From IMG/VR virus record IMGVR_UViG_3300030061_001162, positions 1-25,859 of that record: 25,859 nucleotides of DNA. One strand, given 5' to 3'. The notes beneath the pieces are model-generated. The model was not told where the DNA came from. It saw only the letters and a list, made by a program, of their open reading frames with translations, and did no database searches. This document shows positions 14,237 through 25,690 of this stretch, piece by piece. The position numbers were made by a program, and so were the translations under genes. The stretch is from a virus. Within the stretch, counting starts at the first letter, position 1; the number at the start of each line of letters is the position of its first letter.

Positions 14237-15091
14237 ATGGGATTCTTTAGAGATCTAAAAAGCAGAGTAAGAGGTATGCAAAACCAAATGCAAGGCCCTA
14301 TGTCTCCACAAATGCCTCCTCAGTTTATAAAAAGAAATCAAGCACCAGGTACGGTTATTGACTTAGAAACAGGACTACCCCCTGTCAAACTTCCTGAAAT
14401 TACTGACAGTATCGGAGGAGGGGGAAGAGGTGGTTTTAGTAATATAAGACAATTACCTCGCTCTGGTATGGGTGCTTTGCCAGTAGATGAGTTTATGCCT
14501 GGATCTGGACTTGGACGTTTTCCGCAAAACATGCCAGTAGGAAGACCTAGAGGACCTAGACGTTTACCACAAAGAATGCCTGAGAGGAGGATGCCTCAAC
14601 AAAGACCGTCTAATAGGTTCTTTGGCGGCGGACTCAGAAGCATCTTTTCAAGGCTACCAAATCAACGCGTGAGGCGAGGAATGTCACCCCCTTTGCCTCG
14701 CGCACCCTTACCTATGCCTCCTAGATTCCCTAGAACTCCTATGCCTATGCCAGAAAGAATGCCTAGAGGACGGTTTCCTATAATGCGACCAGGATTTGCA
14801 GAGGGTAAAGTAGTTGATACAAACATGTTGATTGCAGAACAAGGAGCTAGAGAAGGTATGTCTCCTCCTGAAATGGCAGCACAAAGAATAAAAGAGTTTT
14901 TAGGAGAAACAGGCAGAACCGTATCAAACAGAGATGCAGAGTTATTTGGTATGGGTATGCTTACTCTTGAAGACATAATGCAAAGGGCTGAACCTGTTAC
15001 CAATAGAAATTTAGAACAACAAGAACAACTGTTTTTCCCTGAATCTGAGTCTCTTGACGACATACTTGCTGATTTAGAAAAAAAAAACTAG
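14237..15091 (+). CDS. Met/Pro/Arg-rich protein, 0-frame product
   Basis: A 284-residue protein with no SD before ATG 14237; its leader is AT-rich. Residues 95-185 are low-complexity and basic, built from Met-Pro-Arg units (PQRMPERRMP, PRTPMPMPERMPRG), likely disordered and able to bind nucleic acid. Residues 185-198 (GFAEGKVVDTNML) resemble the C-terminus of the 765-residue neighbour. The end is acidic and helical. The frame stops at TAG 15089-15091 directly after the slippery heptamer A AAA AAC (15082-15088), and the -1 frame remains open for 122 more codons. The full product would then be 406 residues. Function unknown; virion association is inferred from position. Confidence 0.7.
   Translation: MGFFRDLKSRVRGMQNQMQGPMSPQMPPQFIKRNQAPGTVIDLETGLPPVKLPEITDSIGGGGRGGFSNIRQLPRSGMGALPVDEFMPGSGLGRFPQNMPVGRPRGPRRLPQRMPERRMPQQRPSNRFFGGGLRSIFSRLPNQRVRRGMSPPLPRAPLPMPPRFPRTPMPMPERMPRGRFPIMRPGFAEGKVVDTNMLIAEQGAREGMSPPEMAAQRIKEFLGETGRTVSNRDAELFGMGMLTLEDIMQRAEPVTNRNLEQQEQLFFPESESLDDILADLEKKN
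15082..15091 (+). promoter_or_regulatory. Putative programmed -1 frameshift site
   Basis: A AAA AAC in the 0 frame (15082-15088), at the end of a run of ten As, with the stop TAG as the next codon. Slippage places the ribosome on AAA AAA CTA. A hairpin CTACAG-AAT-CTGTAG (15116-15130) lies 27 nt downstream, farther than the usual stimulator spacing, and no upstream SD-like stimulator is obvious. Confidence 0.6.
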
Positions 15092-15456
15092 ATAAACCTG
15101 AACCTATTGGTGTAGCTACAGAATCTGTAGATTTTACTGAACCTAGAGAACCTTTAAAGGTAAAAGACTTTACCGACATTATCTTTGATCCTTTCAATCC
15201 CGTAGACTACGCCTCTCTTGGTGCCGGACCAGGAGGTAAAATTTTTATATCTGCAAATAAATTAAGAAAGCTAACTGAAAGGCTAAGTGCCATTAAAAAA
15301 CAAAAGAATCAAGCCGCTACAGATTATCGCAGAGGCCAAGACCAGTTAGATGCTAACGAACCGCAGGGTGGAGACTTAATAAATAGGGCTGAAAAGAAAT
15401 TTAAAAAATTATCTATAGAAGAAGAAAAAATACGTAAACAAATAGATGGCGACTAG
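15088..15456 (+). CDS. -1 frame C-terminal extension of the 14237 gene
   Basis: This is 122 codons in the -1 frame relative to 14237, ending at TAG 15454-15456. It has the codon pattern of a real gene (GAA, CCT, GAT, AAA; no internal stops) but contains no ATG, GTG or TTG, so it needs frameshifting, or a sequence correction, to be translated. The protein starts acidic and Pro-rich. It then has a DPFNPVDYASLGAGPGGKIF segment and ends in a basic coiled-coil-like helix. It overlaps the next gene's start by 11 nt. Without it, 15092-15445 would be a 354-nt gap in a densely packed operon. Confidence 0.7.
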   Translation, partial: LDKPEPIGVATESVDFTEPREPLKVKDFTDIIFDPFNPVDYASLGAGPGGKIFISANKLRKLTERLSAIKKQKNQAATDYRRGQDQLDANEPQGGDLINRAEKKFKKLSIEEEKIRKQIDGD

Positions 15457-17743
15457 AGCAGAGGTACTTGAAAAACTAAAGACGGCAGCTGCCGAAGGCA
15501 ACATTCGTGAAGCTTATAGTGAGTTTGAAGAACTGCCGATAGTAGATCAGTTAGCAATCAGTATTTCTCCTGGCGTAGGAGATGCACTTGCAGTCTACGA
15601 AGTTGGAGAGTTTGCAAAGAGAGGATCCGAAAGCCTAGAAGAAGATAGTTTTCTTGGAGCCTTAGGTAATTACGGTTTATCGGCACTAGCCGCAGCTAGT
15701 TTGATTCCTATCTTTAGATTATTTAGAGGTGCTAGAGCCGTAAAGAGCGCTCCTAAAGCAGAGCCTAAGTTGTTAGAGAACCTAGAACCTACCAAGGTGG
15801 CAGAAGAAACTACAAAGGATGTACCCATACCTAAGGTTGAAGAGTTTAAACCGTTATCATTAGATGAGCAGATGTACCCAGGTACTATGTTTGATAACAA
15901 AGCTATTGAAAATGCATCACCTGATTTAATAAACAAAGGATTAACTTCAAAGGCCGCTAAGTTTGTAAATACAAGCAAGAAACTAAACGATAGCGGTAAA
16001 GCACAAGCGTTTATTAACGCAATTAAAAAGAGTGGGGTACCAGAAGGTGAAATGAGATTGCTTAACTTAATTGATGAAACGGGTGAAATACATCCTAAGT
16101 TGATGAGTGAGCTTGAGATAAGAAACCCTCAAGGCAAGATTACCCGACAAAGGCTAGCTAACTATATTAAATCCAATCAGCAAGGTGCTTTAAGTAGAAG
16201 ACGTGTAAATGATAATCAATTTTCAGGGCAAATAGACACACCTGGTTCTTCTGCAATAAAAGAAAACACTTACCACGTCAGAGGTACAGATAGAAAAGGC
16301 AGGTTTGACCATTACAGTAGTCTTGACGAGCATAAGGATAATTTTGTTTTTGATAGTATTGCTGATTTAGATTTGAGAGCTGCCGCTGGCGATATTGATT
16401 TAGATTCTATAGATAAAGTAAGAGGGTTTGTAGGTGGCAATAGTTTATTGAACATATCAAGAATCCAATCTGATTACGCAGAGGAGCTTGGTGAGCTAGC
16501 TTCAAAAAATAAAAACAACCAAGTTGATCAGATTCGCATGTCTGATGAATACAAAAATATTTCTAACGACATAGATTTTTCAAACTTAACTGACCTTAAT
16601 TTTACTTTATCGGCAATAGAAGCAACCGTTAGACAGGCTCCAGATTTATCTCCGGTTAAGCTTAAAGACAAGTTATTTAAAGACATGTTAAATGACAAAA
16701 CTCCTGTGGGTAAATTATATAAAGAAGCAGTAGATGAAAATGATGATTTTGCAGATGTTGATATTGGAAGTCTTATTAAGCCTGAATACTTTGAAAGACT
16801 AATACCTGTAGTTAAGAAAGCTCAAGCAGACTTTCCAATAACACCTTACGTAGATTCTAAAAAAGTAGCTGCTTTGAAGAAAGGGTTGAATGAATACAAC
16901 CAGAACGTACCTAAAGTTAATAAGTTAGCTCAAGATAAATTTAAAATACAAAACGAATTGAAAGCATCTGGATTAACACCTGGATCACCTTCTTACTTAA
17001 GAACTACTGACGAATTAGCAGAGATAGATAAGCAAATAGCTGATCTTGTTCCTGCTAATAGTTTTGGTAATTTTAGTGGATTTACACTAACAAAGACAGA
17101 TTTAGAACAAGCTACAGGCAAACCGTTTACTGAATCGCTTGGTAAAAGCGTAGATGAAATATTCTACGACTTAGAACGTCTAAGAGGTGGAGATACAGGA
17201 CCCATAAGACAAAAGTATGGACCAGGAACTCCCGAAGAAAGAGCTTTAAAATACTTTAATGAAATGGTGAACAACAGCGACCAAACTTTTGATCTTGCTA
17301 ACGGTCTTGGCATACTCAAAAAAGCAACTAAAATTAATCCTGACTTACTCAAAGGGTATCCAATAGATGCTTATGCTGAAGCCTCAAGAAGTAATGTCAC
17401 TAAATTTCCTATAAGATCTAACTTCTTAAGGGCAGTTACCGAAGGTAAAGATGGTATGTATTTTGATTCAGCTACTAAAAGACTTGGAAAAGAAGGAGGT
17501 AGTCAATATGAAATACTACAAACAACTTATAAACAAGCTGAAGGAGAAATATCTAAAATTATTAAAGAGTTGGGTGAAGATCCCAAAAAATACGTTAGAA
17601 AATTTGATGATGTAGATGGAGATCTTGATGGTACTTACGTTAAGATTGATAAGCAAATAAGAGATCTAGTGAAGGACAAAGGCGTAGATGCATTTAAGGA
17701 TGGTGGTCCTGTCAGTATAGATAATATGTTAGCTAACTTATGA
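15446..17743 (+). CDS. Large virion / polyvalent-type protein
   Basis: A 765-residue protein. Residues 69-94 are a hydrophobic segment next to a basic patch, possibly membrane-inserting during DNA ejection. Residues 270-350 include YHVRGTDRKGRFDHYSS and RIQSDY near 337-346. These recall the EIQSDW-type motif of large polyvalent proteins of phages and mobile elements; that is from memory and uncertain. The C-terminus (FKDGGPVSIDNMLANL) resembles a Gly-Gly-x-Val...Met-Leu ending common in marine phage virion proteins. The ATG has no SD and overlaps the end of the upstream -1 extension, so its translation may depend on ribosomes that finish that extension. Its stop overlaps the terminase start as ATGA. 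Confidence 0.6.
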   Translation: MATRAEVLEKLKTAAAEGNIREAYSEFEELPIVDQLAISISPGVGDALAVYEVGEFAKRGSESLEEDSFLGALGNYGLSALAAASLIPIFRLFRGARAVKSAPKAEPKLLENLEPTKVAEETTKDVPIPKVEEFKPLSLDEQMYPGTMFDNKAIENASPDLINKGLTSKAAKFVNTSKKLNDSGKAQAFINAIKKSGVPEGEMRLLNLIDETGEIHPKLMSELEIRNPQGKITRQRLANYIKSNQQGALSRRRVNDNQFSGQIDTPGSSAIKENTYHVRGTDRKGRFDHYSSLDEHKDNFVFDSIADLDLRAAAGDIDLDSIDKVRGFVGGNSLLNISRIQSDYAEELGELASKNKNNQVDQIRMSDEYKNISNDIDFSNLTDLNFTLSAIEATVRQAPDLSPVKLKDKLFKDMLNDKTPVGKLYKEAVDENDDFADVDIGSLIKPEYFERLIPVVKKAQADFPITPYVDSKKVAALKKGLNEYNQNVPKVNKLAQDKFKIQNELKASGLTPGSPSYLRTTDELAEIDKQIADLVPANSFGNFSGFTLTKTDLEQATGKPFTESLGKSVDEIFYDLERLRGGDTGPIRQKYGPGTPEERALKYFNEMVNNSDQTFDLANGLGILKKATKINPDLLKGYPIDAYAEASRSNVTKFPIRSNFLRAVTEGKDGMYFDSATKRLGKEGGSQYEILQTTYKQAEGEISKIIKELGEDPKKYVRKFDDVDGDLDGTYVKIDKQIRDLVKDKGVDAFKDGGPVSIDNMLANL

Positions 17744-19200
17744 ACCTAGCCCACCTCTCTGACCAAGAGATTAAAGAAACCTTAGTTCTAAAAGAACGCT
17801 TGGAGTTGTTAAAGAAACAAAATGGTTGCCAAGAAACATTCTTAGACTTTATTGATCACATGTGGCCAGAGTTTATTTGTGGCCGTCATCATAAGATATT
17901 TGCACAAAAGCTAGAAGATGTTGCTAATGGCAAATGCAACAGGCTTATCATCAATATGCCGCCAAGACATACGAAGTCTGAGTTCTGTTCTACTTACTTC
18001 CCTGCTTGGATTATGGGTAAGCAGCCAAAACGTAAGATTATGCAGACAACGCATACTGGAGAGCTAGCTGTACGATTTGGTCGTAAAGTTCGTAACATGA
18101 TGGATACTGAGGAATACAAACAGATATTCCCAAAAGCACAATTACAAGCAGACTCTAAGTCAGCAGGACGTTGGGAAACTGACAAAGGTGGTGAGTACTT
18201 TGCCGCAGGTGTAGGAGGAGCGATTACGGGTCGTGGTGCGGATCTATTAATTATTGATGATCCTCATTCAGAGCAAGACGCTCTTAGCCCTACTGCTATG
18301 GAGGCGTGTTGGGAATGGTACACTTCTGGACCTAGACAGCGTTTGCAACCAGGTGGAGCTATCATACTGGTAATGACTCGTTGGAGTTCTATAGATCTAA
18401 CCGCAAAGTTATTAGACTCTCAGAAAGAGTCATCTGCTGACCAATGGGAGGTTGTGGAGTTTCCAGCTATATTCCCTGAAACCAATAACGCTTTGTGGCC
18501 TGAGTTCTGGTCTATGGATGAACTAGAAAAGGTCAAAGCATCTTTGCCGGTACAGAAATGGAATGCACAATGGATGCAGACTCCTACATCTGAAGAAGGA
18601 TCTATTGTTAAAAGAGAATGGTGGAATGCTTGGGAAAGCGAAGTTTTACCGCCAGTTAGTTATATCATTCAAAGTTATGATACTGCGTTTAGTAAAAAAG
18701 AGAACGCAGACTATTCTGCTATATCAACATGGGGTGTATTTAAACCAACACCTGACTCTCCTGAAAGTATTATATTATTGGATGCACAAAAAGACCGTTG
18801 GGATTTCCCAGAGCTAAAACGTATAGCATATGAAGAGTATCAATACTGGGAGCCTGATATGGTATTGATAGAAGCCAAAGCATCTGGAACACCTTTAACA
18901 CATGAACTTAGAAGGTTGGGTATACCTGTGGTTAATTATTCTCCTACCAGAGGACATGATAAATCAACTAGGATGCATTCTGTTGCACCTATCTTTGAGT
19001 CTGGTTTGGTGTATGCACCTGAAAAGAAATTTGCAGAAGAAATGATAGAGGAGTGTGCTTCTTTTCCTTTTGGAAAAAATGATGACCTATGTGATACTAT
19101 GACGCAAGCTCTGATGAGATTTAGGGAGGGTGGTTTAGTTTCCCTTGATGATGATTACTCAGACAAAGAGAAAGCACCAGTAAGGAGAGTATACTACTAG
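17740..19200 (+). CDS. terL: Terminase large subunit
   Basis: A 486-residue protein, the DNA-packaging motor with headful or site-specific nuclease. The ATPase half has a Walker A-like MPPRHTKSE (73-81), a Walker B LLIIDDPHS with D173-D174, and a coupling motif VMTRWSS (211-217). The C-terminal RNase H-like nuclease has D314 in SYDTAF, E378 in VLIEAK, and D449/D452 in KNDDLCDTMTQAL. Length and motif order are normal for the family. It starts by an ATGA overlap with the upstream virion-protein gene. The small subunit lies far upstream (9550). The portal gene follows after 4 nt. Confidence 0.93.
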   Translation: MNLAHLSDQEIKETLVLKERLELLKKQNGCQETFLDFIDHMWPEFICGRHHKIFAQKLEDVANGKCNRLIINMPPRHTKSEFCSTYFPAWIMGKQPKRKIMQTTHTGELAVRFGRKVRNMMDTEEYKQIFPKAQLQADSKSAGRWETDKGGEYFAAGVGGAITGRGADLLIIDDPHSEQDALSPTAMEACWEWYTSGPRQRLQPGGAIILVMTRWSSIDLTAKLLDSQKESSADQWEVVEFPAIFPETNNALWPEFWSMDELEKVKASLPVQKWNAQWMQTPTSEEGSIVKREWWNAWESEVLPPVSYIIQSYDTAFSKKENADYSAISTWGVFKPTPDSPESIILLDAQKDRWDFPELKRIAYEEYQYWEPDMVLIEAKASGTPLTHELRRLGIPVVNYSPTRGHDKSTRMHSVAPIFESGLVYAPEKKFAEEMIEECASFPFGKNDDLCDTMTQALMRFREGGLVSLDDDYSDKEKAPVRRVYY

Positions 19201-19204
19201 GATT

Positions 19205-21682
19205 ATGGCAATAGAAAAAGATATAAACCCAACAGTACTTAACGAACAGAATCAAGTACCGCTTGGTCAAGAAGACATGAGTGTTGCTATAGAGGCAATA
19301 AAAGATAGAGGTACAGAAGGATTTGAAATACAAGAAGATGGTAGTGCTATTCTTGGTACATCTACTACAGAAGAAATAGATACAGATTTTGACAGTAACT
19401 TAGCAGAAGTTTTAGATCCTCAAGAACTACGAAATATTGCTAATGAATTAATTGCAGGTATAGAGAAAGACAAAGCCTCAAGAGATGATTGGGAAAAAAC
19501 ATATAAAGACGGTTTAGAGTATCTTGGTATGCGTTTTGACGCAGAAAGATCTGAACCATTTGTAGGGGCAAGTGGTGTTATTCACCCTTTACTAGGTGAA
19601 GCTGTAACAACTTTTCAAGCACAAGCCTATAAAGAATTATTACCAGCAGGCGGTCCTGTAAAAACTCAAGTTATAGGTTCATATGATTCACTAGCAGAAG
19701 AACAGGCTCAAAGAGTTAAAGAATTCATGAACTATCAAATTACTCATGTAATGGAAGAGTTTGATGAAGAGTTAGATCAAATGCTTTTTTATCTACCTTT
19801 GGCAGGATCCTCTTTTAAAAAGGTTTATTATGATGAAAGTCTAGGTAGGGCCGTATCTAAATTTATTGCACCTGAAGATTTGATAGTTCCTTATTACACA
19901 ACTGATTTAGAAACATGTCCAAGAATAACAAATGTAATCAAGATAGCTGAGAATGAAGTAAGAAAACTACAATCTATTGGATTTTACAAAAAGATAGATA
20001 TAAGTTCTAGTGATAGTACTGATGAATATAGTGGTGTTAAAGAAGAAATAGATAAACTTTCTGGCATGGAGCCTTCATATGATGACGGTGAAGTATCTCT
20101 TTTATATGAAGTACATTGCAATCTAGAACTAGAAGGATTTGAAGATACAGATGAAGAAGGTCAATCTACAGGTATTAAACTACCTTATATCGTTACTATA
20201 GATGCTGGCTCAAGTGACATCCTTTCTGTCAGAAGAAACTACAGAGAAGATGATGCACTAAAAAACAAAATAGAATACTTTGTTCATTTTAAGTTTTTGC
20301 CTGGTCTAGGATTTTACGGTTTTGGATTAACGCATATGATTGGCGGTTTATCTAAAGCATCAACTTCAATAATGCGTCAGCTAATTGATGCTGGAACTTT
20401 AGCTAATTTACCTGCTGGCTTTAAGACTAGAGGTATTAGGATTAGAGATGAAGATACTCCTATACAGCCAGGTGAGTTTAGAGACGTAGATGCTCCTGGT
20501 GGATCTCTAAGAGATTCAATACAACCGTTACCTTTTAAAGAGCCAAGTGGAACTTTACTTCAGTTACTAAACATATTGGTTAACTCAGGACAAAAGTTTG
20601 CATCTATTGCTGAAATAAATACAGGGCAAGGTAATCCAAATGCACCTGTAGGTACAACGCTTGCGTTACTAGAAAGATCTACAAAGGTATTGTCTGCTAT
20701 TCACAAGCGTTTACATAATTCACAAAAGAAAGAATTTAAAATACTATCAAAAGTGTTTCAAGAATACTTACCGCAAGAATATCCATATGCTGTGGCTAAT
20801 AATGAAACGACCATTAAACTATCTGATTTTGATGAAAAGGTAGACATATTCCCAATATCTAATCCTGATATATTTAGTCAATCTCAAAGGATTGCTATGG
20901 CGCAAGAGATGATGCAGTTGGTACAATCCAATCCACAAGTTCATGGACCTAACGGTACTTATGAAGCTTATAAAAGAATGTATGCGGCTATAGGTGTTGA
21001 TAACGTAGAACAAATACTTACACCCCCACCCCCTACAGATCCTTTGCCAACAGAAGCTGGGTTTGAAAACAATCAATTGTTACTAGGTCAACAAGCTCAA
21101 GCATTTCCACAACAAAATCATGATGCACATATTGCAATCCATATGTCTTTGTTGAACACACCTCCGGTGCAAATGAATGCCCAAGTGCAAGCTTTGATTC
21201 ATTCACATATCATGCAACATTTACAAATGAAAGCTGACATACTTGGTGAACAACAAATGCCACCAGAAGCTAAACAACAGTTTCAACAATTGCAACAACA
21301 AGCACAACAAGCATCTCCACAAGAAGCACAAAACTTATCTTTGCAAGCAGGAGACATATTGGCACAATTCTCAGCACCAATACTCGCTGAACTGTTAGTT
21401 GAATACAATCAAAAAGTTTCAGCACCACAAGATGAAGATCCATTAGTAGCAATTAGAAAACAAGAGCTTGCTTTAAAAGGCCAAGAGCTTTCTATAGAAC
21501 AACAACAGTTCTTAGCTGCCGAACAAAGAAAAGCTCAAGAAGCTCAACAAAGAATTAATGTTGATAGAGAAAGAATTGATGCTCAAGAAGATATTGCAGA
21601 TCTAAGAGATGAAACGGCTAGAGCTAGGTTAGAACAACAAGCAAGGTTCAAACTTATGGAACAAGCAAACAAACAACAGTAG
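19205..21682 (+). CDS. Portal protein (P22-like)
   Basis: An 825-residue protein that forms the ring at the capsid vertex for packaging and tail attachment. It matches the P22-like/N4-like portal family seen in podophages. An N-terminal acidic arm is followed by DWEKTYKDGLEYLG and FVGASGVIHPLLGEAVTTF. Later come a core with a FYLPLAGSSFKKVYYD segment and a long C-terminal part rich in Gln and Glu, a predicted coiled coil (about 700-825) like the barrel of P22 portal. It directly follows terL. Its stop TAG shares a G with the GTG start of the next small gene. Confidence 0.85.
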   Translation: MAIEKDINPTVLNEQNQVPLGQEDMSVAIEAIKDRGTEGFEIQEDGSAILGTSTTEEIDTDFDSNLAEVLDPQELRNIANELIAGIEKDKASRDDWEKTYKDGLEYLGMRFDAERSEPFVGASGVIHPLLGEAVTTFQAQAYKELLPAGGPVKTQVIGSYDSLAEEQAQRVKEFMNYQITHVMEEFDEELDQMLFYLPLAGSSFKKVYYDESLGRAVSKFIAPEDLIVPYYTTDLETCPRITNVIKIAENEVRKLQSIGFYKKIDISSSDSTDEYSGVKEEIDKLSGMEPSYDDGEVSLLYEVHCNLELEGFEDTDEEGQSTGIKLPYIVTIDAGSSDILSVRRNYREDDALKNKIEYFVHFKFLPGLGFYGFGLTHMIGGLSKASTSIMRQLIDAGTLANLPAGFKTRGIRIRDEDTPIQPGEFRDVDAPGGSLRDSIQPLPFKEPSGTLLQLLNILVNSGQKFASIAEINTGQGNPNAPVGTTLALLERSTKVLSAIHKRLHNSQKKEFKILSKVFQEYLPQEYPYAVANNETTIKLSDFDEKVDIFPISNPDIFSQSQRIAMAQEMMQLVQSNPQVHGPNGTYEAYKRMYAAIGVDNVEQILTPPPPTDPLPTEAGFENNQLLLGQQAQAFPQQNHDAHIAIHMSLLNTPPVQMNAQVQALIHSHIMQHLQMKADILGEQQMPPEAKQQFQQLQQQAQQASPQEAQNLSLQAGDILAQFSAPILAELLVEYNQKVSAPQDEDPLVAIRKQELALKGQELSIEQQQFLAAEQRKAQEAQQRINVDRERIDAQEDIADLRDETARARLEQQARFKLMEQANKQQ

Positions 21683-24787: not shown

Positions 24788-25690
24788 ATGGCAATAAATA
24801 GGTCGCAATTAGCGAAGGAACTAGAGCCAGGCTTAAACGCCTTGTTCGGCATGGAATATGCTAGATATGAAGCAGAGCATGCAGAAATCTTTGATACAGA
24901 GAGTTCTGATAGAGCGTTTGAAGAAGAAACTTTAATCGTTGGGTTCGGTAATGCTGAAGTAAAATCAGAAGGTAGTGGAGTCAGATTTGACAACGCTAAC
25001 GAAGGTTATACTTCTCGTTATACCCACGAGACGGTTGCTTTAGCATTCGCACTAACAGAAGAAGCTGTTGAAGATAATCTGTATGATCGTCTAGGTGCTA
25101 GATACACTAAAGCACTAGCTAGATCTATGGCTAATACAAAGCAAATCAAAGCTGCGTCTGTATTGAACAATGCGTTCTCTACAACAGGCGGTGATGGCAA
25201 AGTATTAATCGCTACAGATCACCCGCTAGGCGGAGGTGGTTCTTTAGCAAATAGAGCTACAACTATGGCGGATCTTAATGAAACTTCTCTTGAAGATGCA
25301 TTAATTAATATCTCTACATTTACTGATGATAGAGGTCTTAATATTGCACTAAGAGGAATGAAATTAATTGTTCCACCTCAGTTGCAGTTTGTTGCTGACA
25401 GACTCTTACAAACCCCAGGGAGAGTAGGAACATCTGACAATGACATTAACTCTATTAGAAATCAGGGAATGATTCCTGATGGCTATGTTGTAAATCATTA
25501 TCTAACAGATACAGATGCTTTCTTCTTGAAAACAGACTGTCCTGATGGATTTAAGTATTTTGAAAGATCTCCAATGCAAACTGCATTAGAAGGTGATTTC
25601 GATACTGGAAACATGAGATACAAAGCTAGAGAAAGATATTCATTTGGATATTCTAACTTCAGAGCTGTGTTCGGTTCTCAAGGAGCTTAA
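24788..25690 (+). CDS. Major capsid protein (gpT-like, HK97 fold)
   Basis: A 300-residue protein with AGGAG 8 nt upstream. Its features match gpT-like major heads: an N-terminal helix with LNALFGMEYARY, then SRYTHETVALAFALTEEAVEDNLYDRLGARYTKALARSM. Further on it has LIATDHPLGGGGSLANR and MKLIVPPQLQFVADRLLQTPGRVGTSDNDINS, ending in a hydrophobic C-terminus. Such proteins build the icosahedral shell. The terminator after its stop suggests this is the end of a strongly expressed unit. Confidence 0.88.
   Translation: MAINRSQLAKELEPGLNALFGMEYARYEAEHAEIFDTESSDRAFEEETLIVGFGNAEVKSEGSGVRFDNANEGYTSRYTHETVALAFALTEEAVEDNLYDRLGARYTKALARSMANTKQIKAASVLNNAFSTTGGDGKVLIATDHPLGGGGSLANRATTMADLNETSLEDALINISTFTDDRGLNIALRGMKLIVPPQLQFVADRLLQTPGRVGTSDNDINSIRNQGMIPDGYVVNHYLTDTDAFFLKTDCPDGFKYFERSPMQTALEGDFDTGNMRYKARERYSFGYSNFRAVFGSQGA

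Follow-up and report, generated by a model that had tools for sequence, protein, structure and literature searches.

A conserved run of nine or ten A's as a recoding site in uncultured phages, with RNA polymerase slippage as its probable mechanism

Introduction

The stretch of viral DNA analyzed here (the window; 25,859 nucleotides of IMG/VR record IMGVR_UViG_3300030061_001162) contains, upstream of its terminase gene, an open reading frame of 284 codons which closes directly behind a run of ten A's, while the −1 frame continues. This raises the question of whether the two frames are joined by programmed recoding into one longer protein and, if so, whether it is the ribosome or the RNA polymerase that slips.

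Results

Frame break and gene context

The last codons of the 284-codon ORF read GAT TTA GAA AAA AAA AAC TAG, with position 15088, a C, lying between the run and the stop codon. The open stretch of the −1 frame spans 15073 to 15456; its 122 codons are counted from the CTA at 15088, and it contains no ATG, GTG or TTG. It reaches 11 nt into the next gene, whose ATG is at 15446. An earlier reading of the DNA made without database searches (the sequence-only reading) had described this layout, namely the 284-codon ORF ending on A AAA AAC and TAG, the 122-codon −1 frame and the 11-nt overlap, and it was confirmed in the sequence. The run at the junction is the only one of at least nine A's in the window. 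Stop codon readthrough was considered and rejected, as the 0 frame closes soon after the TAG.

The gene order of this region is the 106-aa gene, the slippage gene, the 765-aa gene, the terminase gene and the SU10-like portal gene, with the capsid gene farther on (Table 1). The terminase of these uncultured phages is nearest to that of cultured pelagiphages, and the group is distantly related to known ocean phages.

Table 1. Features of the window around the recoding junction.
Feature	Coordinates	Strand	Remarks
Upstream gene, 106 aa	13898..14218	+	Conserved; immediately before the slippage gene where loci reach that far
0-frame ORF, short product of 284 aa	14237..15091	+	Met/Pro/Arg-rich; C-terminus SLDDILADLEKKN; homologues at all examined loci
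A10 run (codons GAA AAA AAA AAC), putative slippage site	15078..15087	+	Conserved recoding element; A9/A10 in 31/31 distinct relatives
0-frame stop, TAG	15089..15091	+	Directly 3' of the run; TAG 23, TAA 2 among 25 aligned loci
−1 extension, 122 aa	15088..15456	+	Conserved VKDFTDIIFDPxxPVDYA segment, then a predicted helical hairpin
Downstream gene, 765 aa	15446..17743	+	First 11 nt shared with the end of the extension
Terminase large subunit	17740..19200	+	Context; basis of the tree
Portal protein, SU10-like	19205..21682	+	Context
Capsid protein gene	24788-25690		Distinct from the slippage gene

Conservation of the junction

Relatives were searched for with three seeds that are independent of the length of the A run (the 765-aa neighbor, the extension and the 106-aa gene). 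Junctions were counted as distinct extension sequences lying behind a run, of which there are 31, the window's own included; L059, L087 and L093, in which the gene is an ordinary one in a single frame and the A7 is unrelated, were left out of this count. The run was found to be A10 in 23/31 and A9 in 8/31, with the extension lying in the −1 frame in every case, and neither A8, A11 (the fused form) nor an interrupted run was seen among these 31 distinct relatives. The sequence-only reading had looked to related phages for conservation of both frames and of the run, and had held that 11 A's in relatives or decay of the −1 frame would speak against it. Both frames and the run proved to be conserved throughout the 31, no fused gene turned up among them, and the extension evolves under purifying selection (pairwise dN/dS of 0.10–0.46). 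The two product lengths that it had proposed, 284 and 406 residues, are thus supported by the conserved junction.

A AAA AAC, the heptamer on which it had placed the shift, proved not to be the conserved element, since relatives with GAAAAAAAAACT, GAAAAAAAAAGT or TTAAAAAAAAAGCT lack this heptamer and have nevertheless kept the −1 extension. It is missing from L040, L071, L142–L145 and L106–L108. In L040, the A9 is followed by a differing sequence and the 0 frame is 13 codons longer, with the extension still in −1; in L071, L142, L143, L144 and L145, the sequence GAA AAA AAA A continues with GT, GC or CT. In L106–L108 the run lies in another phase, as AAA AAA AAA G, and in L146–L148 it is A10. 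The phase of the run therefore varies (GAA AAA AAA A.. or AAA AAA AAA G) and its length is always at least nine. The codon following EKK was found to encode N (AAC), T (ACT) or S (AGT or AGC), its first base always being A. Judging from these alignments, the feature common to all lineages is an A9–A10 homopolymer with no conserved flanking structure.

The terminase tree placed all A9/A10 loci within a single clade (28 rows, support 88/63). L070 also lies inside this clade, the upstream part being missing from its contig. As two pairs of sisters in this tree differ in their runs, L040 (A9) from L043 (A10) and L144 (A9) from L146 (A10), two changes of run length with retention of the −1 relation are indicated, and wherever the run length had changed, the frame behind it had been brought back to −1. 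In the sister lineage L068/L137, the short frame is followed neither by a run nor by the extension, and it closes where the 765-aa homologue begins. It should also be noted that the middle of the short protein (window 14237–15060 and homologues) differs strongly among close relatives in both content and length (approximately 215 to 370 residues, and as many as 626 in L147), and has Met/Pro/Arg-rich modules that are shuffled in appearance.

Selection on the run, the stop and the extension

Among 25 aligned extensions, synonymous variation was found at 20 of the 22 fully conserved residues, with the two columns lacking it being one Asp and the first Leu. The codon at the latter is CTA in 25/25 loci, and the remaining conserved Leu columns use many codons. 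This CTA creates the 0-frame stop, which is TAG in 23 loci and TAA in 2, so that it is the stop as such which has been retained. No variation was seen in the codons of the run, GAA AAA AAA AAC, among the 24 loci that could be read here; both Lys and Glu use both of their codons elsewhere in these phages.

Outside the junctions, long A runs are avoided in the genes of these phages. Across 124 kb of genes from 21 loci, a single run of at least nine A's was observed against an expected 6.0, and eight runs of at least eight against an expected 19.5. These expectations were obtained by synonymous resampling in 200 rounds, none of which (0/200) gave a value as low as that observed. The sole non-junction A9 in this set is a second, in-frame run located mid-gene at position 939 of the L147 ORF that begins at 1976.

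Programmed recoding against accidental or switched frame breaks

The −1 extension behind the A run is, on the evidence of these comparisons, a conserved programmed recoding site. It is taken to be neither a pseudogene nor an assembly error because the run, the −1 relation and the purifying selection are conserved, and 31 of 32 junctions have no start of their own. Translation of the extension as a separate product, by re-initiation or from a non-standard start, would find a precedent in the more distant phages L059–L066, in which the domain forms a gene by itself that starts with an ATG. However, the stretch from the upstream stop to the domain contains no ATG, GTG or TTG at 31 of the 32 junctions that were checked, and possible non-standard starts (ATT or ATC) are conserved neither in position nor in presence. 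An error of assembly or a pseudogene tail would have to account for the same frame break in many independent metagenome contigs, with a domain under purifying selection behind it, and these explanations together are considered very improbable. Even less credence is given to phase variation at the DNA level, whereby the run would be a contingency locus at which replication slippage toggles individual phages between a fused and a split state. Mutation of poly-A tracts this long does occur, and the run length does differ between sister loci, but a fused gene, with 11 or 8 A's, was seen in none of the 31 distinct relatives, so that the on and off states of a phase-variable gene do not occur together here. 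Moreover, each of the two changes of length came together with changes downstream of the run that restored −1, the opposite of switching on.

RNA polymerase or ribosome

Slippage by the RNA polymerase at the A9/A10 run is favored over ribosomal frameshifting, with a probability put at roughly 65%. What the junctions have in common is at least nine A's in any phase, with no conserved RNA structure, which argues for the polymerase, as does the retention of run positions 1 and 9, neither of which is needed for a ribosomal heptamer. Position 9 remains A while the encoded residue switches among Asn, Thr and Ser. The avoidance of runs of nine or more A's elsewhere in the genes of these phages also speaks for the polymerase. 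In addition, it is usually from nine A's upward that bacterial RNA polymerase slips, and it does so efficiently at this length (PMC5009743, PMC1088944); in many bacterial genomes, selection against A/T runs also appears at this length (PMC1088944, PMC5009743), and the E. coli enzyme shows no slippage below eight A's (PMC6260861). The lower slippage of E. coli RNA polymerase on poly(A) than on poly(T) counts against this reading (PMC6260861). An A/T homopolymer of about nine or longer, as looked for in transcriptional slippage, is present at all 31 frame junctions, and both frames and their relation are conserved with the trans-frame product under purifying selection.

During transcription of the late operon, the polymerase would thus slip on the A10 (A9 in some relatives) and yield a mixture of mRNAs. 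Templated mRNA with ten A's would give the 284-aa protein, ending at the TAG right after the run. An mRNA with one added A, or with two fewer, would be read into the −1 frame and give a protein of 406 aa, or 405 aa, respectively, carrying the C-terminal extension.

Ribosomal frameshifting would lead to the same two product lengths from a faithful mRNA, with the tRNA-Lys pairs slipping back by one base, before AAC TAG, at A AAA AAA or, where it is present, at A AAA AAC, both of which are proven bacterial shift sites (PMC3711429, PMC4066793). As A AAA AAA occurs in the 0 frame and in the correct phase within every A9/A10 run, slippage by the ribosome and by the polymerase are inseparable by sequence alone. 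The in-phase X XXY YYZ motif of ribosomal frameshifting is accordingly found in all members as A AAA AAA, although not as A AAA AAC, which is absent from L040, L071, L142–L145 and L106–L108. In the window clade, where A AAA AAC is present, the immediate stop (TAG or TAA) could raise ribosomal slippage, and in IS1 this heptamer can work without an established stimulator (PMC4066793). On the other hand, the immediate stop is not conserved beyond the window clade, and the first and ninth A's, dispensable for the heptamer, are retained even as the residue encoded at the latter changes. Neither of the usual, though not obligatory, stimulators was found: the downstream RNA of the relatives revealed no conserved structure, and no SD-like element upstream of the run was seen by eye in the alignment. 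Ribosomal frameshifting as the main explanation is therefore regarded as possible but doubtful, and both kinds of slippage may contribute.

With regard to RNA structure, the RNAalifold consensus downstream of the run contained 0 pairs, a 42-nt indel begins about 12–15 nt downstream of it and the z-scores for single sequences in this region were mostly weak. A downstream hairpin or pseudoknot as stimulator was rejected, as the center and distance of small hairpins vary by clade and the consensus has no pairs. Short perfect hairpins over the VKDFTD codons (window 15150–15172 and equivalents) were observed in several clades and are probably a by-product of the codons.

The extension domain and its product

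Structure prediction for the extension gave a low-confidence N-terminal part, which holds the VKDFTDIIFDPxxPVDYA segment, and a confident helical hairpin for residues 56–120. The position of the gene suggests a late protein, probably one that serves in structure or assembly. No homologue of the extension was found among 50,697 phage records from cultured phages, nor was there a match around terL of HTVC023P, HTVC027P, 023Pt_psg01 or DSL-LC04. The bacterial genomes searched provided no confirmed match, and comparison with family profiles gave chance-level matches only. The slippage gene, its extension and the 765-aa gene all fall outside the PHROG and Pfam families.

The domain was found in three arrangements, namely fused through the putative slippage site in the window clade, within the C-terminal part of the homologue of the 765-aa protein in L067, L068 and L070, and as an ATG-initiated gene of its own before the terminase in L059–L066. 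A short C-terminal motif common to neighboring late proteins is possible: the 765-aa protein ends in KDGGPVSIDNMLANL, the short slippage product in SLDDILADLEKKN (GGPLDLSQVLAELEKKN in L132), and the terminase carries REGGLVSLDDDYSDK near its C-terminus.

Coupling to the downstream gene

The stop codon of the extension lies between −17 and +9 nt from the next start in 30/31 junctions, with no next start having been found for L039, whereas the stop used in the 0 frame sits 354 nt upstream of that start in the window. Because the extension stop adjoins the next start, ribosomes reading the extension would be delivered to the following gene, and the 765-aa gene is probably translationally coupled to the extension, as the geometry suggests. 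Since ribosomes in the extended frame end a few nt from this start, slippage probably determines how strongly the 765-aa gene is expressed as well. The sequence-only reading had suggested such a dependence, pointing to the missing Shine-Dalgarno motif at 15446. The proposal fits the conserved geometry, but the missing motif is not distinctive, as one is likewise absent at the starts at 14237, 17740 and 24225.

The predicted structure of the 765-aa protein is of low confidence (mean pLDDT 57) and gave no usable fold match. Its homologues in L121, L120, L140 and L127 are longer (999–1245 aa) and carry a swapped C-terminal module, ending in GLGLNSQRGPEFNLKFGKNF and not in GGPVSIDNML.

Discussion

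The junction described here is a recoding site that is well conserved in uncultured phages and belongs to a protein family without annotation. Gene finders report the short form and would miss, split or truncate the extension, a conserved domain with other architectures elsewhere. It is suspected, with slightly better than even odds, that this lineage of tailed phages uses slippage of the polymerase at poly-A, and not of the ribosome, to set both the ratio of the two forms of a late protein and the level of its neighbor. No case of productive transcriptional slippage in a phage was found in the literature searched, where the phage recoding papers found concern ribosomal frameshifting. If the proposal holds, this would be, within that literature, the first example from a DNA phage of a transcriptional slippage site that is both conserved and put to productive use, with the phage turning the noise of its host's polymerase into a switch of fixed ratio.

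Comparison with known systems

Among phages, the gpG/gpGT pair of lambda offers a likeness in that a late gene yields a short form and a form with a −1 C-terminal extension, conserved despite weak sequence similarity (PMC5009743). The slippage gene differs in preceding the terminase and portal genes instead of lying between the major tail protein and the tape measure, and in having a homopolymer as its conserved element where lambda has a classic heptamer. Identity with the tail assembly chaperone G/GT was rejected owing to this position and the lack of any PHROG or Pfam match. The frameshifts in major capsid and tail proteins, as in gene 10 of T3/T7 and in Listeria phages A118 and PSA, likewise provide a late protein with a recoded C-terminal extension (PMC5009743); in the present case the extension is a predicted helical hairpin and not Ig-like, and the capsid is encoded by another gene.

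Poly-A dnaX genes also carry the run inside a gene with two products, being A9 in Thermus thermophilus and 7–10 A's in the split dnaX genes (PMC3711429, PMC1088944). The split genes resemble the phage gene in requiring recoding for the long form. In Thermus dnaX, in contrast, in-frame reading gives the long product and slippage the short one, whereas slippage in the phage gene would give the long product.

The closest functional parallel appears to be Shigella spa13-spa32, a plasmid-borne type III secretion gene and not a phage gene, in which slippage is shown by experiment, where in the phage it is inferred from sequence. In the Shigella system, slippage in the run adds 112 aa at the C-terminus, and the end of this addition overlaps the beginning of the following gene, whose expression is strongly affected by the slippage (PMC5009743).
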